From IMG/VR virus record IMGVR_UViG_3300027736_003065, positions 1 through 28,254 of that record: 28,254 nucleotides of DNA; one strand, given 5' to 3'. The notes beneath the pieces are model-generated. The model saw only the letters and a program-made list of their open reading frames with translations, searched no databases and was not told where the DNA came from. Origin of the DNA: a virus. Below are positions 15,775 through 27,389 of this stretch, piece after piece (the first letter of the stretch is position 1; each line of letters begins with the position of its first letter). The translations under genes and the position numbers were made by a program.

Positions 15775-18303
15775 ATGCCTACACCACTTTGGTCAGACAT
15801 CTTCAAAACTTTTACCTATGCGTTTGAATCAGATCCGCTTAGTAGAAGATTGCAATCTAAAGAGATTGTTGGCGCTGGTATCATCAGTCCTGACTCAATC
15901 CCTAGCATTTCTCCAGATGGGTCTTATTGGAACGGTCAAGATAACAGACTTATCAGACTTAGGGAAACTCAAGACTTTGTCGATCTTTCCACAGTAAGCA
16001 ACAGAATATCAAGATACAAAGAATACGAAAGACTTAGAGCTGTTCCAGAAATTGAAACATGTTTAACTATTTTCGCTGATGAAGCTTGTGTCGCTGGCAA
16101 TACCAAAGTAGCAACACCTTTTGGTTTTAAAACCATTAAAACTCTTGCTGAAGAAAATGCAAATGATAAATTCTTGGTTTATTGTTATGATTTCAAGAAA
16201 AAGGATTATACCCTTGGTTGGGCACATCATCCAAGAAAAACCAAAACAGCAGAAACAGTAGAAATTATTTTTGATAATGGCGGGAAGATTGAATGCACGG
16301 CAGATCATAAGCTACTTCTTCGTACAGGAGAATGGATACAAGCAGAAAATATTAAAGTTGGCGATGATTTAATGCCTTTTTATCGTGAAAAACCAGTTGC
16401 AGAACATAACAGTCTACTAGCTGGTCAATTCCCAAGAATATTTACTTTTAATAATGGATGGGTCACAGAAAGACAACTCGTTGATGAATGGCGAGCAGGA
16501 AGACCTATAGAAAAATATCAAAGAATAAATTTTTATACAAGACTAATCAATCAAGGCATGTCAATGGATAATATCATTGCCATGGTTGAAGAAACTTGGA
16601 TCACTGTAAAGGCAAGATTAAGAAAAGCTGGATTTACCTACAAAGAACTAAAGCATCTTTCAAAGAATAAGAGCGACAGCAGAAAAGTAATTGGTAAATT
16701 CAAAGGAATTAGCCAAGATGTTTATGACTTAACAGTTGAAGAACACCATAATTTTGCTACAGATCATACTATTGTTCACAATTGTCAAAAAGATGAATAT
16801 GGTAATGTTTTGAAAATTGAAGTTGAAAATGATGATGTAAAAAAAGAAGTCGAATTTCTTTTAATGTCTCGTCAAATGCTTAACTTCAATAAAAGAATAT
16901 GGGCAGATTTTAAAAGTCTATTACTTTATGGCGATCTTTTTTATGAATTAATTACGGATCTTGATTCTCCAAATGAAGGTATTTTGAAAATTCAAAGACT
17001 TCCTCCTGAAAGTATTTATCGGATTGAAACAACTAAAGGAAAAGTTATTGAATTCCAACAATCAAAAGAAGGACCAGATTATCAATCATTGGTTCGTGCG
17101 CCTGTAACAGTGGCTAGCGATCAAGAAATTCAAATGGCAACCGCTATTAGGTTTGCACCAGAACAAGTCGTCCATGTAAGAATTAATGAGGATAGAAGGC
17201 AATTCTATCCATATGGCAGCTCAATTACTGAGCCAGCCAGAGGACCAGCATATCAATTAAGATTGATGGAAGACAGTATGTTGACGTACCGTCTTGCAAG
17301 AGCACCTGAACGTAGAGTGTTTTATATTGATGTTGGTCAACTTCCCGGATTTAAGGCAGAAGCTTTTATTGAAAGAATGAAAGACCAATTCCGTAAAAGA
17401 AAAATTAGTTTGAATCAAAATGGATTTTCTGGACCTTCTTCTGTTGAAGAAAGATATCAGCCACCAGCAGTTGAAGAAGACTATTGGATTCCAACCAGAC
17501 CAAACTCTAATACAAAAATTGAAACACTTCCCGGTGCCCAGAATCTCGGTGAAATTGATGATGCTATTTACTTCAGACTAAAACTGATGACAGCTCTCAA
17601 TTTCCCCAAGAATTATCTGAATGTTGATGATCCAGCACAAACTAAGATTACTTTGTCTTCACAAGACGTAAAATTTGCAAGAACTGTTGAAAGATATCAA
17701 TCTTCATTAGAAGATGGAATTTATGAAATAGCACAAAGACATTTACATATGCGTGGATTTCCACCTGAAACATATGATGACTTGAAAATAAGCATGACTC
17801 CTCCAAGTGAGTGGAGAGAACTAAGCAGAGCAGAAATTGTTAATAATAGAATTCAGAATGTTACAAGTCTTAAGTCTGCTGGACTAATTAGCGATTATGA
17901 TCTATTGCGTTTCTGGATGCATTATACAGAAGAAGAAACCAAAGATATCCTTGCAAGAACCAAATTGCAAAAACTCGAAGATGCAAGATTGCAAGTTCTA
18001 CAGCAAAATCCACAACTATTGGGTGTCGGTATTCCTTCACAAGATGATGAGCAAGTTGGTGCAACTGAAGAAGGTCCAAATAAACAACTTGAAGTTCCGA
18101 CAGAAGAACCCCAAGAAGGTTCTCCAGAAGCTATGGCTGGTGGAATGCCACCACCAACAGGTGCATCACCTGCTGCTCCAGCAGTGTCAGGAGGTTCGCC
18201 ATTGCCCGAACCAAGTGAAGAAGATGTTATTAAATATGATCTTGAAATCCAAGATTATGCAGCCGAAGAAGACATGGAGAGCCAAGATTATAGCATAGAA
18301 TAA
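15775..18303 (+). CDS. 20: portal vertex protein (T4 gp20-like) with in-frame intein
   Basis: The precursor is 842 residues. Residues 105-336 are an intein and splicing would leave a 610-residue portal. The N-extein ends EIETCLTIFADEA and the C-extein begins CQKDEYGNVLKIEV, which together restore the gp20 region around the conserved P-E-I/V and D-E-A. Further gp20 features are PPESIYRIE, FAPEQVVHVRIN, LRLMEDSMLTYRLARAPERRVFYIDVG and a NFPKNYLNVDD segment. The C-terminal 100 residues are Pro/Glu-rich and acidic. The portal is the dodecamer that nucleates the prohead and docks terminase. It sits directly upstream of the other head genes, as in T4, and has a late promoter. Confidence 0.95.
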   Translation: MPTPLWSDIFKTFTYAFESDPLSRRLQSKEIVGAGIISPDSIPSISPDGSYWNGQDNRLIRLRETQDFVDLSTVSNRISRYKEYERLRAVPEIETCLTIFADEACVAGNTKVATPFGFKTIKTLAEENANDKFLVYCYDFKKKDYTLGWAHHPRKTKTAETVEIIFDNGGKIECTADHKLLLRTGEWIQAENIKVGDDLMPFYREKPVAEHNSLLAGQFPRIFTFNNGWVTERQLVDEWRAGRPIEKYQRINFYTRLINQGMSMDNIIAMVEETWITVKARLRKAGFTYKELKHLSKNKSDSRKVIGKFKGISQDVYDLTVEEHHNFATDHTIVHNCQKDEYGNVLKIEVENDDVKKEVEFLLMSRQMLNFNKRIWADFKSLLLYGDLFYELITDLDSPNEGILKIQRLPPESIYRIETTKGKVIEFQQSKEGPDYQSLVRAPVTVASDQEIQMATAIRFAPEQVVHVRINEDRRQFYPYGSSITEPARGPAYQLRLMEDSMLTYRLARAPERRVFYIDVGQLPGFKAEAFIERMKDQFRKRKISLNQNGFSGPSSVEERYQPPAVEEDYWIPTRPNSNTKIETLPGAQNLGEIDDAIYFRLKLMTALNFPKNYLNVDDPAQTKITLSSQDVKFARTVERYQSSLEDGIYEIAQRHLHMRGFPPETYDDLKISMTPPSEWRELSRAEIVNNRIQNVTSLKSAGLISDYDLLRFWMHYTEEETKDILARTKLQKLEDARLQVLQQNPQLLGVGIPSQDDEQVGATEEGPNKQLEVPTEEPQEGSPEAMAGGMPPPTGASPAAPAVSGGSPLPEPSEEDVIKYDLEIQDYAAEEDMESQDYSIE
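16087..16782 (+). other. intein within the portal protein
   Basis: This is a 232-residue intein, residues 105-336. Block A starts with C105 in CVAGNTKVATPFG. Block B is ECTADHKLLL, with the catalytic T175 and H178. Block F is VYDLTVEEHHNF. Block G is HTIVHN, ending in H335-N336, and the +1 residue is C337. All splicing residues are present, so it should be active. Between blocks B and F lie about 110 residues without LAGLIDADG or HNH motifs. They include IIAMVEETWITVKARLRKAGF, which looks like a helix-turn-helix and may be a remnant or DNA-binding part of a homing endonuclease. Confidence 0.92.
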
Positions 18304-24353: not shown

Positions 24354-24794
24354 TCAAACAACAACATTCATTGTCCCTTCCAAAATTGGTAAAGAACGAT
24401 TTTCTTGATCACTCAAGCACCAATAGATTTTAGTTAAAGAAAGGGCATCAAGTGCTATTTGGCATTTGTAACATGGTTTAGCCAGTCTAAATCGTCCATG
24501 GCGGTTGATTTTTAGGCTTAGGATCGTAGTTCTCTTGCTATAGTGCTTATCATCGAGTTTGAGTAAAAGATCGGCTTCAGCGTGAAGGAAGGGGTATTTC
24601 TGCCAATGCTCTATATTGAATCGTTTAGCTAATCGATAAGCTTTAGCAGAAGTCATGATTGGGTTATTCTTACCTATTGCTAATATTCTATTTTTTCTAA
24701 TAGCGAAAGCATAATGATAAAATGGACGAGATGTTTCTCCATCCCAATCTTCCATCATAATTTTGACACATTTTTCTAAATGATATTGGTTCAT
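24354..24794 (-). CDS. zinc-dependent nucleotide deaminase-like protein (CDA fold)
   Basis: This 146-residue protein has the cytidine-deaminase-fold zinc signature: H71-A-E73 in PFLHAEADLLL and P107-C-x-x-C111 in KPCYKCQIAL. The strand and helix order around these motifs fits the family. The spacing between HAE and PCxxC (about 35 residues) is like dCMP, tRNA-adenosine and riboflavin-type deaminases. The N-terminal segment YHYAFAIRKNRILAIGKN is the first strand pair. The substrate cannot be decided; a dCMP deaminase for phage DNA synthesis is the simplest guess, but key substrate-loop motifs are not obvious. It has a consensus sigma70 promoter and a predicted leaderless start. Confidence 0.8.
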   Translation of the reverse strand: MNQYHLEKCVKIMMEDWDGETSRPFYHYAFAIRKNRILAIGKNNPIMTSAKAYRLAKRFNIEHWQKYPFLHAEADLLLKLDDKHYSKRTTILSLKINRHGRFRLAKPCYKCQIALDALSLTKIYWCLSDQENRSLPILEGTMNVVV

Positions 24795-24831: not shown

Positions 24832-25779
24832 TTAATCTTCATGGTCGATGCTATCTTCATTTCTTGATTTAAAATATTGTACCAATTCATCTCTAAATTT
24901 AATTTTATTTCCTGTTAAGGCATAAATTCCTTGCCAATCTTTCTTTATGTCTGTATCTGGGTCATAGTTATTTTGAACTAGAACATTGCTTCTCCAACTA
25001 TAACCTCTATCTTTTTTCTTTCCGTGCCAATAGTGCAATAGTGTTCCTTCAACATATCCTACATTCTTCTTAATATGTTCAACTGCAAGGGTTTCCCATT
25101 TTTTTAGTACACGTTTGTATGCTTGTGTGAAATTTTTGTTTATAGTCATTTCTATTTTATCGACTAGACCAAAAGCCATATGTCTGTCTCCAGATCCTAA
25201 TATTGCTTCTTCTAATAGTCCACCGAATGAATTAAAGGCATATTTTGTAGCTGCCCAAGCGAAACCGGGGTGCCAATGGTCATATTTATCGCATTTTTGG
25301 TGTATGTTGTTGAAATAGCTATAAACAAATCCTTTGTGTGCTTTTATCATTTCGTGTTTAGGAGAAAGGTCTACAGCAGTGCTAAACATTTGGACTACTG
25401 GGTGATGTTGTAGTTGGTGTATGGTTTCTTCGACCCAATCTGGTCTTGCGAAGGCAACATCTGCGTCAATCCATGCAACGTATTCCCAATTTGATGGAAG
25501 TCTTTGTACTGCTACGTTGATCATGTTTTCTTTATGCCACAATTCAGATGTAGTTCTTACTTGAATGTTTTGTGGGTTGTCTGATGTTGTAACTTCAAAT
25601 GGTCTATTTCCGTATGCAGCTTCTATTGTGTAGAGTACTGCTCCAGAATCATTGACCATTTTTTCAAATTTTTTGTACAGTTTGTATCTGCTGTTGTATC
25701 TTTGAGGGTTGATGATAGGTGTGATGACATAGAGTTTTGCATCTTCCTGATAATTGGCAGCTAATGTTTTGCTGATCAT
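24832..25779 (-). CDS. GT-A fold glycosyltransferase (GT2-like)
   Basis: This 315-residue protein has an N-terminal LYVITPIINPQRY (16-28), a nucleotide-binding beta-alpha half and the metal motif D105-A-D107 in YVAWIDADVAF. The acceptor half includes HPGFAWAATKYAF, SFGGLLEEAILGSGDRHM and LLHYWHGKKKDRGY, a layout seen in GT2-type phage glycosyltransferases. The final Gly-Ser-Gly-Asp and His-x-x-His-like residues fit metal and donor binding. The ribosome site lies inside a perfect hairpin with an embedded late box. It is downstream of the adenylating enzyme gene, so early read-through is possible. The acceptor, virion protein, DNA base or host glycan, cannot be read from the sequence. Confidence 0.82.
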   Translation of the reverse strand: MISKTLAANYQEDAKLYVITPIINPQRYNSRYKLYKKFEKMVNDSGAVLYTIEAAYGNRPFEVTTSDNPQNIQVRTTSELWHKENMINVAVQRLPSNWEYVAWIDADVAFARPDWVEETIHQLQHHPVVQMFSTAVDLSPKHEMIKAHKGFVYSYFNNIHQKCDKYDHWHPGFAWAATKYAFNSFGGLLEEAILGSGDRHMAFGLVDKIEMTINKNFTQAYKRVLKKWETLAVEHIKKNVGYVEGTLLHYWHGKKKDRGYSWRSNVLVQNNYDPDTDIKKDWQGIYALTGNKIKFRDELVQYFKSRNEDSIDHED

Positions 25780-25783
25780 TTTT

Positions 25784-25809
25784 GCACCTCTAACAATATT
25801 TAGAGGTGC
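25784..25809 (-). promoter_or_regulatory. hairpin sequestering the ribosome site of the 25779 gene
   Basis: On the minus strand GCACCTCTAA (25809-25800) pairs perfectly with TTAGAGGTGC (25793-25784) over the loop ATATTG. The downstream arm contains the Shine-Dalgarno AGAGGTG, 5 nt from the ATG. Transcripts entering from upstream would hide the site. Confidence 0.8.
25797..25804 (-). promoter_or_regulatory. late promoter box TCTAAATA inside the hairpin
   Basis: TCTAAATA spans the end of the upstream arm and the loop. With T4-late spacing transcription would start near 25791, inside the downstream arm, giving RNA that cannot fold the hairpin. Confidence 0.5.
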
Positions 25810-25861: not shown

Positions 25862-26890
25862 TCATGTAACCAACGAAATAAATTCTTCAAATTTATAATC
25901 AGGAAAATTATCTACATATTTTATTGTTATGTTAACAGGAGAATCAAGGAATTTTAGTATATGTTTTTTAAGTTCTTCTTCTCGTTCTCCAAGATTTTCA
26001 GAGATAATATGAAGTTCAAGTTCTGTCAAACTTGTTTGAATTAATTTATATTTTTTAATTCCAAATTTTGAATAATACTCTTGAGTTCCAAATAAAGCCC
26101 ATTTTTTGTCTCTGTTTGGCAAAATAAACATGTTTCTTACTCTTCCGTGTATTTTAGTAATAGTCTGAAGGCTTCTACCACAAGTACATTCACCAAGTTC
26201 TATACAATCTCCATTTTTATATCTTCTTATATAGGGGTTTGTTAGTGTTGTGATAATCATACTGCCATCTGTATCAACTTCTACTATTTGATTTTCCATG
26301 ACGTGATAGACATTTGGGTTATCTGGGCAAGTTATAGCTATAGTTCCGCATTCTTCTGATGAGAAAGAGCTACCGCCAAGTTCTCCGGTACTTTTTGTGT
26401 CGATTAGGTTGGTAATTTTTGATAGGTCAAGTTCTTTTAAAATGCTTGGTCTAGCGTGAATATAATGTGGATTTTTTTCTTCTAGCCAAGATTCTAGTTC
26501 TTTTGTAGGTAAATGTCCATTTCGGAATATTTTACCTTGTTTGGGAAAAATTTCGTGTGGTATTCCCCAAGATGGGTAAGTTGCTAAAGTTGATCTGGGT
26601 TTAATTATTGCGTAGTTTTTTGTTGAATCCCATTTGCGCCATAATACTTCTCTTATGTTTGTTGCATAGTACCAAATATAATCAGCATAAGATTTTTCAA
26701 TTGTTAGTGTTTCTCCAGTACTTCCAGAAGTTGTAGTAGAATAAAGTCCTTTTTTCATCCTTGTGTTTCTAAGGTCTTCTCTTGTAATGATTGGTAAATT
26801 TTTTAATTTTTCAAAATAAATTTTATGATTCCATTGTGATTTATTGAATTCATTTGTTAAAAGAACTACATCTTTTTCATGTTTACTCAT
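25862..26890 (-). CDS. PaaK/CapK-like adenylate-forming enzyme
   Basis: This is a 342-residue protein starting at 26890 (MSKHEKDVVLL). GGAG just upstream favours this ATG over one at 26923. The ATP-binding P-loop STTTSGSTGE (51-60) is intact. Further family blocks follow: GELGGSSFSSEECGTIAITC, YHVMENQIVEV, NPYIRRYKNGDCIELGECTCGR and the hinge-like KIHGR. The wording is that of phenylacetate-CoA ligase (PaaK) and CapK relatives, which activate carboxylic acids with ATP. It is shorter than PaaK (about 430), with a reduced N-terminal region. The gene overlaps the upstream methyltransferase-like gene by 8 nt. A role in making an acyl or amide modification on a glycan is possible. Confidence 0.82.
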   Translation of the reverse strand: MSKHEKDVVLLTNEFNKSQWNHKIYFEKLKNLPIITREDLRNTRMKKGLYSTTTSGSTGETLTIEKSYADYIWYYATNIREVLWRKWDSTKNYAIIKPRSTLATYPSWGIPHEIFPKQGKIFRNGHLPTKELESWLEEKNPHYIHARPSILKELDLSKITNLIDTKSTGELGGSSFSSEECGTIAITCPDNPNVYHVMENQIVEVDTDGSMIITTLTNPYIRRYKNGDCIELGECTCGRSLQTITKIHGRVRNMFILPNRDKKWALFGTQEYYSKFGIKKYKLIQTSLTELELHIISENLGEREEELKKHILKFLDSPVNITIKYVDNFPDYKFEEFISLVT

Positions 26891-27332
26891 AGAAACTCCA
26901 AAAGAAGAAATTGTAATCATCATATTCGTCTATCAAGTCTGGTCTGATGAGAAAATCGTTTTCTTTTGGAAAGTAGTCAGCAATTTTCATTATTGGTAAT
27001 TTATGTTTAAAACTTCTTGCTATAAAATTTCTACAATTTTCTTTACACATTGTGAGGATAGAGTCAGTTAATTCTTTAGTAAAGTTAAGTACACCATCAC
27101 CGATTATGTTGTCATAATAAGTTTTATTGTTGCGCCAATCTTGTTTAATTACAGTTGGCGCAACATACCAAGGATCGATATCCATTTGAAAATCACTTAT
27201 TGGTATTAATTTATGTGTACATCCAAGAAGAAGAGTTGTGCCAGATCCCAAATTATCTTTATATGCTTGAAAATCATCAAGTGAAGGAGAAAGTGGATGT
27301 GGTAACTCTGTTGCCCAATAAGAATTATCCAT
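26883..27332 (-). CDS. SAM methyltransferase-like small protein
   Basis: This 149-residue protein has a reduced Rossmann outline. TLLLGCTHKLIPIS (about 33-46) replaces the usual glycine-rich motif I. MDIDPWYV follows as the acidic strand-2 end, then VIKQDWRN and YYDNIIGDGVLNF, typical of methyltransferase motifs II-IV. The C-terminal half is short, so the substrate domain is small. Motif I has only one Gly, so binding of the methyl donor may be weakened. It overlaps the adenylating enzyme gene by 8 nt. A TATAAATA late box lies 49 nt upstream; no Shine-Dalgarno is seen. Confidence 0.6.
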   Translation of the reverse strand: MDNSYWATELPHPLSPSLDDFQAYKDNLGSGTTLLLGCTHKLIPISDFQMDIDPWYVAPTVIKQDWRNNKTYYDNIIGDGVLNFTKELTDSILTMCKENCRNFIARSFKHKLPIMKIADYFPKENDFLIRPDLIDEYDDYNFFFWSFYE

Positions 27333-27381: not shown

Positions 27382-27389
27382 TATTTATA
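27382..27389 (-). promoter_or_regulatory. T4 late promoter, exact TATAAATA
   Basis: An exact T4 late consensus on the minus strand, 49 nt before the ATG at 27332. It is divergent from the box at 27411. Confidence 0.65.

Follow-up and report, generated by a model that had tools for sequence, protein, structure and literature searches.

The leader of a glycosyltransferase gene in the window (the whole stretch analysed, 28,254 nucleotides) probably works as a translation lock coupled to a promoter, of the kind known from T4 e and I-TevII, a reading to which we assign a probability of about 0.58 on the strength of the sequence and its predicted folding. The window, a 28-kb contig, is a fragment of an uncultured T4-like phage. 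It carries on its plus strand a portal gene with an intein, a prohead protease gene, and a gp23 capsid gene, and its capsid shares 76% identity with the capsid of LR756511, an uncultured 595-kb phage. With moderate confidence, a trick known from T4 would here serve a gene of a new kind in a distant giant T4-like phage. The features on which the argument turns are as follows, all on the minus strand.

24832..25779, minus: glycosyltransferase gene behind the leader, 315 aa, predicted GT-A fold
25784..25793, minus: hairpin 3' arm, TTAGAGGTGC
25785..25791, minus: Shine-Dalgarno AGAGGTG, wholly within the 3' arm and 5 nt before the ATG
25790..25792, minus: predicted transcription start, best guess 25791, placed by the box spacing of T4 and the clade's leaderless genes
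25794..25799, minus: hairpin loop, ATATTG
25797..25804, minus: late-promoter-like box TCTAAATA, whose CTAAATA equals the late consensus of Aeh1 (-12 to -6)
25800..25809, minus: hairpin 5' arm, GCACCTCTAA
25816..25833, minus: upstream element TTTGTAATAATTTTATTT, kept in the homologue L007 and copied before a neighbouring gene in L003-L006 and L008
25862..26923, minus: upstream gene P2, 353 aa, from which any read-through RNA would contain the closed hairpin
27382..27389, minus: consensus late box TATAAATA before the upstream operon (27332..25862)

The minus-strand leader reads CGGCACCTCTAAATATTGTTAGAGGTGCAAAA-ATG, with the ATG at 25779. The two arms pair perfectly over 10 bp (GCACCTCTAA/TTAGAGGTGC), the 3' arm is followed by AAAA and then the ATG, and the box TCTAAATA extends from the last part of the 5' arm halfway into the loop. 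A preliminary description of this DNA had proposed a perfect 10-bp hairpin with the Shine-Dalgarno in its downstream arm, a late box in the upstream arm and loop, and a late start inside the downstream arm. All of these elements were found at 25779-25809, on the minus strand (the description gave no strand), with the box at 25804-25797 and a box-predicted start, 25791, that would fall just inside the 3' arm. A terminator reading of the stem was ruled out, as a T-run after the stem is absent on both strands.

In the proposed mechanism, RNA entering from the upstream genes would contain both arms, and the 10-bp hairpin would bury the Shine-Dalgarno. A gp55-type late polymerase would read TCTAAATA and start at about 25791, and the resulting late RNA, AGAGGUGCAAAAAUG..., would lack the 5' arm and carry the Shine-Dalgarno free at its extreme 5' end. 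By calculation, opening the Shine-Dalgarno requires 14.4 kcal/mol in read-through RNA but 2.6 kcal/mol in RNA begun at the predicted start. Because a start at 25791 removes the 5' arm and the opening cost falls, the protein would be made only from RNA begun at the gene's own late promoter. We infer where transcription starts, that read-through RNA is made and silenced, when the lock acts, and that TCTAAATA serves as a promoter at this gene.

That CTAAATA is a late-type promoter element in this clade, as the preliminary description had supposed in calling it a late box, is indicated by its position-specific enrichment, by the presence of gp55-like genes, and by its agreement with the Aeh1 consensus. 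The promoter sample comprised eleven contigs, the window and ten related ones, totaling 1.74 Mb at 32-56% GC. Across the first eight, the density between genes is about 6 times that inside them for CTAAATA and about 3 times for ATAAATA. Before the ATGs that open reading frames, [CA]TAAATA shows a sharp peak at 4-5 nt in nearly every contig, including those of 53-56% GC (G009 is weak), and control motifs such as ATAAATC show no such peak. Of 13 related contigs, 9 carry the gp55 family phrog_234 (E 5e-7 to 5e-11); no gp55 homologue was found in the 28-kb window, itself a fragment. In T4 the late box TATAAATA lies at -13 to -6, and the Aeh1 late consensus is CTAAATA beginning at -12 (PMC1524935; for Aeh1 also PMC2988020). 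The clade box matches the Aeh1 consensus, a comparison drawn by motif and the -12 position; in this clade it lies mostly 4-5 nt before the start codon. Within the window, CTAAATA occurs 9 times against 7.4 expected, and the box alone is thus not rare in such AT-rich DNA.

The stem itself stands well above chance. The 61-nt leader has a minimum free energy of -18.9 kcal/mol (z -4.6), matched by none of 200 shuffles, and when only the 30 nt upstream of the box were shuffled, the stem energy of -16.1 kcal/mol compared with -8.2 ± 2.5 kcal/mol and was equaled in 125 of 20,000 cases. Shuffling produced a perfect stem of at least 10 bp over the Shine-Dalgarno 7 times in 30,000; keeping the box constant gave 4 in 30,000, a figure stated separately because TCTAA of the box is by nature partly complementary to TTAGA. 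These measures, stem length and energy, take the place of a hairpin-hiding score by mean pairing probability, which is uninformative at this site (p 0.30) because the shuffled arms pair with the region too. Among 1518 Shine-Dalgarno genes in the 1.74 Mb of related contigs, stems of at least 10 bp were found only at the window gene, at its near-copy in G005, and at one gene with an 11-bp stem that is terminator-like and without a box; no further box-containing stem of this length occurs among them. Tests for stems over the Shine-Dalgarno and for start hiding across the related contigs gave no general enrichment, and a start-hiding hairpin at p ≤ 0.05 was seen in 8 of 109 box genes, which is no excess. 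At three other sites (G011:37447+, G017:1768+, and G012:124368-) a strong hairpin has the start codon in its 3' arm and a late box in its loop or 5' arm; these may represent the lock in leaderless form, a pattern that does not reach significance over the whole set of box genes.

Comparison with relatives gives a mixed picture. The hairpin is identical in six close contigs, and across the seven including the window, variable sites number 0 of 30 in the hairpin and spacer versus 7 of 55 upstream (p 0.04), a weak test given that the contigs are near-identical. The leader travels with the glycosyltransferase gene although the upstream or neighbouring genes differ in several relatives. Two protein scans yielded a single diverged homologue, L007 (protein 76% identical), the genome contigs giving distant ones only; in homologues less than 60% identical the layout, judged by eye, is absent. 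L007 keeps CTAAATA, a 16-nt spacing (17 nt in the window), and GAGGTG, and its stem is weak (-7.4 kcal/mol, with 37% of shuffles as good), so that opening its Shine-Dalgarno would cost 5.2 kcal/mol in read-through RNA versus 4.3 kcal/mol from its own start. Read by eye in register, one pair changes from G-C to A-U on both sides, one changes to U-G, and three inner pairs are lost, changes that neither prove nor kill the stem. The covariation that the preliminary description looked to for support did not emerge: close relatives are identical, and L007 pairs no better than shuffles. L007 also comes close to the case named there as damaging, a homologue that loses pairing while keeping the gene, in that its stem is weak; its box and Shine-Dalgarno nonetheless persist. 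The promoter and Shine-Dalgarno are therefore either older or better kept than the lock, and the strong stem is so far limited, in the sequences compared, to one narrow lineage of near-identical phages. In L007 the upstream element TTTGTAATAATTTTATTT is better conserved than the hairpin. A copy of it (L003:4957-4996; L008) precedes a capsid-tag-like FMN-reductase gene (MISFIEYLAEAT) inserted beside the glycosyltransferase gene. As a sigma70 promoter TTTGTAATAATTTTATTT is doubtful, its spacing to a -10 being a misfit in the glycosyltransferase leader.

These observations bear most directly on the alternative that the late promoter is real and the strong hairpin a recent or neutral feature of a narrow lineage, its stem grown by drift without regulatory effect. 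The natural partial complementarity between TCTAA of the box and TTAGAG of the Shine-Dalgarno would give drift a head start, 6-bp stems appear in about 15% of shuffles with the box fixed, both the box and the Shine-Dalgarno occur in L007 with no significant stem, and box genes are not enriched in hairpins. Yet 10 perfect pairs including GCAC/GTGC are expected about once in 10,000 even with the box fixed, and the hairpin is invariant among the close contigs while the upstream leader varies, so we consider this account improbable, if the best placed of the alternatives.

It is less probable still that the palindrome is a DNA operator, with a dimeric repressor seated on a 26-bp dyad over the late box and start. 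The dyad is perfect and centred on the promoter and start, and there is a precedent for autorepression in I-TevI, which binds an operator overlapping its own late promoter and represses it (PMC2988022). An exact scan of viral contigs for the arms, however, recovered only copies of the leader and, besides these, a single site within an unrelated reading frame, which would leave the regulator with one target; the arms are altered in L007; and the Shine-Dalgarno sits exactly in one arm, for which an operator would have no need. We give equally little weight to a self-standing translational control (a thermosensor, or a repressor site to which a protein binds) that would act on every transcript, the late start lying upstream of it or being absent: hairpins over ribosome sites are common regulators and the conserved TTTGTAATAATTTTATTT could belong to another promoter giving whole-hairpin RNA, but the late box lies inside the hairpin and the clade's boxes predict starts about 5 nt downstream, which would remove the 5' arm, an Rfam search of the leader gave no match, and a stem with 10 perfect pairs and about -16 kcal/mol should stay closed nearly all the time.

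If the leader is indeed a lock tied to its own promoter, the question arises of which RNA it silences. Same-strand genes lie upstream of the glycosyltransferase gene, and a search for a terminator before it found none. An early origin for the upstream RNA is not borne out by our results: in the upstream region, sigma70-like sites do not exceed chance, and a consensus TATAAATA (27389) heads the operon there. Given that box, the silenced read-through RNA may be late, not early, and the hairpin may insulate the glycosyltransferase gene from late read-through instead of timing its expression. The upstream protein P2 itself has no match in Pfam or PHROG; it contains a stretch, STTTSGSTGE, that we presume resembles the phosphate-binding motif of adenylate-forming enzymes. 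On the other side, a deaminase-like gene (24794..24354) lies directly downstream of the glycosyltransferase gene, and just before it is a perfect sigma70 promoter, TTGACA-16-TATAAT (window 24829-24802, minus), which suggests that this neighbour would be expressed early.

The glycosyltransferase assignment made in the preliminary description is borne out by structure prediction, which gives a GT-A fold. The AlphaFold model has a pLDDT of 89 and 126 PDB structure matches at E ≤ 0.001, with GT-A enzymes on top. It resembles GT2/GT7-like enzymes, matching chondroitin polymerase, GlfT2, and beta-1,4-galactosyltransferases, but at TM-scores of 0.3-0.5 and about 10% sequence identity, and the Pfam Glycos_transf_2 match is sub-threshold. 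D105 and D107 of the DxD motif (D105-x-D107) are invariant in 36 homologues. On the model, the 315-aa product is a GT-A-fold glycosyltransferase, for which the earlier wording "sugar-modifying" is a general label but a fair one. Elsewhere in the window, the portal gene (gp20, 15775-18303, plus) contains an intein-splicing domain, PF14890.

The survey of box positions also exposed what is a more surprising result than the lock: a class of late promoter that is predicted to give leaderless mRNAs and is associated with capsid tags. Taken with the published T4 geometry, a box 4-5 nt before the ATG would place the transcription start on or next to the A of the ATG, making these late mRNAs leaderless. 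T4 itself has no excess of the box at that spacing (4 matches versus 4 in a reversed-pattern control), whereas LR756511 has 29 matches versus 8. In the window, TAAATA stands 4-5 nt before an ATG at 507-, 11386-, 11418+, 14060+, and 15672-, and the same arrangement is far above chance in G001, G002, G010, G011, G012, and G017, as also in LR756511. Where genes predicted to be leaderless diverge from each other in pairs (window 11375(-)/11429(+) and G001 42131(-)/42161(+)), their late boxes lie back to back in one short shared region; in the G001 pair a single long palindrome is made up of both boxes and both start codons.

Capsid-targeting-like N-termini (M..F..[FWY][LIVMF]) occur in 49 of the 79 genes with a box at 4-5 nt versus 98 of 2164 others (Fisher p 3e-41, an optimistic value since some of the genes are paralogues and 15 of the 49 come from one contig). 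Such starts, for example MITFKQFLEN and MRFKQWLLLSE, are seen at G010:85479-97898, G001:47440-57882, window 11375-, and other sites. Capsid cargo is expected to be made late. The association suggests a portable cassette of late promoter, ATG, and capsid tag. We regard the odds as about even that the clade's late box normally abuts the start codon and yields leaderless gp55-type mRNAs, preferentially for capsid-tag-like proteins, with the glycosyltransferase gene an exception that keeps a Shine-Dalgarno and whose hairpin ties translation to its own late promoter. In the titles and abstracts of the literature searched, leaderless transcripts among giant phages are discussed for AR9, a phage with multisubunit polymerases of its own, and no report of leaderless mRNAs of a T4-like late system was found.

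The logic of a hidden ribosome site coupled to a late promoter is known from T4 e, soc, 49, and I-TevI (PMC3014915) and from I-TevII, I-TevIII, segB, and Aeh1 mobE (PMC2988022); the preliminary description was correct in calling it established for e and soc, and its list was incomplete. The nearest twin in layout is T4 I-TevII, which has a late box in the 5' arm and loop, the Shine-Dalgarno in the 3' arm, a leader CCTCGTATAAATATGAATACGAGGTGAAACG-ATG, and 18 nt from box to ATG versus 17 nt in the glycosyltransferase leader. In T4 e (and also in soc and 49) the ribosome site is hidden in read-through RNA, late promoters lie in the 5' strand, and the late RNA is free (PMC3014915). There are also differences. 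T4 e has two TATAAATA boxes, and its early read-through and inhibition have been demonstrated, whereas here there is one CTAAATA-type box, and any read-through and its inhibition are predictions. I-TevI, I-TevII, I-TevIII, segB, and mobE are homing endonuclease genes inside early or middle transcripts, whereas the window gene encodes a glycosyltransferase; and promoter starts have been mapped in the intron-encoded I-TevI, I-TevII, and I-TevIII, whereas the glycosyltransferase start is predicted from sequence.

If the lock operates as proposed, the coupling of translation to late-promoter use would reach uncultured giant phages and a gene for sugar transfer, and the T4 rule would not be confined to lysis, capsid-decoration, and homing-endonuclease genes. 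The analysis also provides a sequence-based late promoter with a predicted start for a giant-phage clade that has no close cultured relative in the collections searched, and that predicted start position opens the switch and the leaderless-mRNA rule alike to direct tests.
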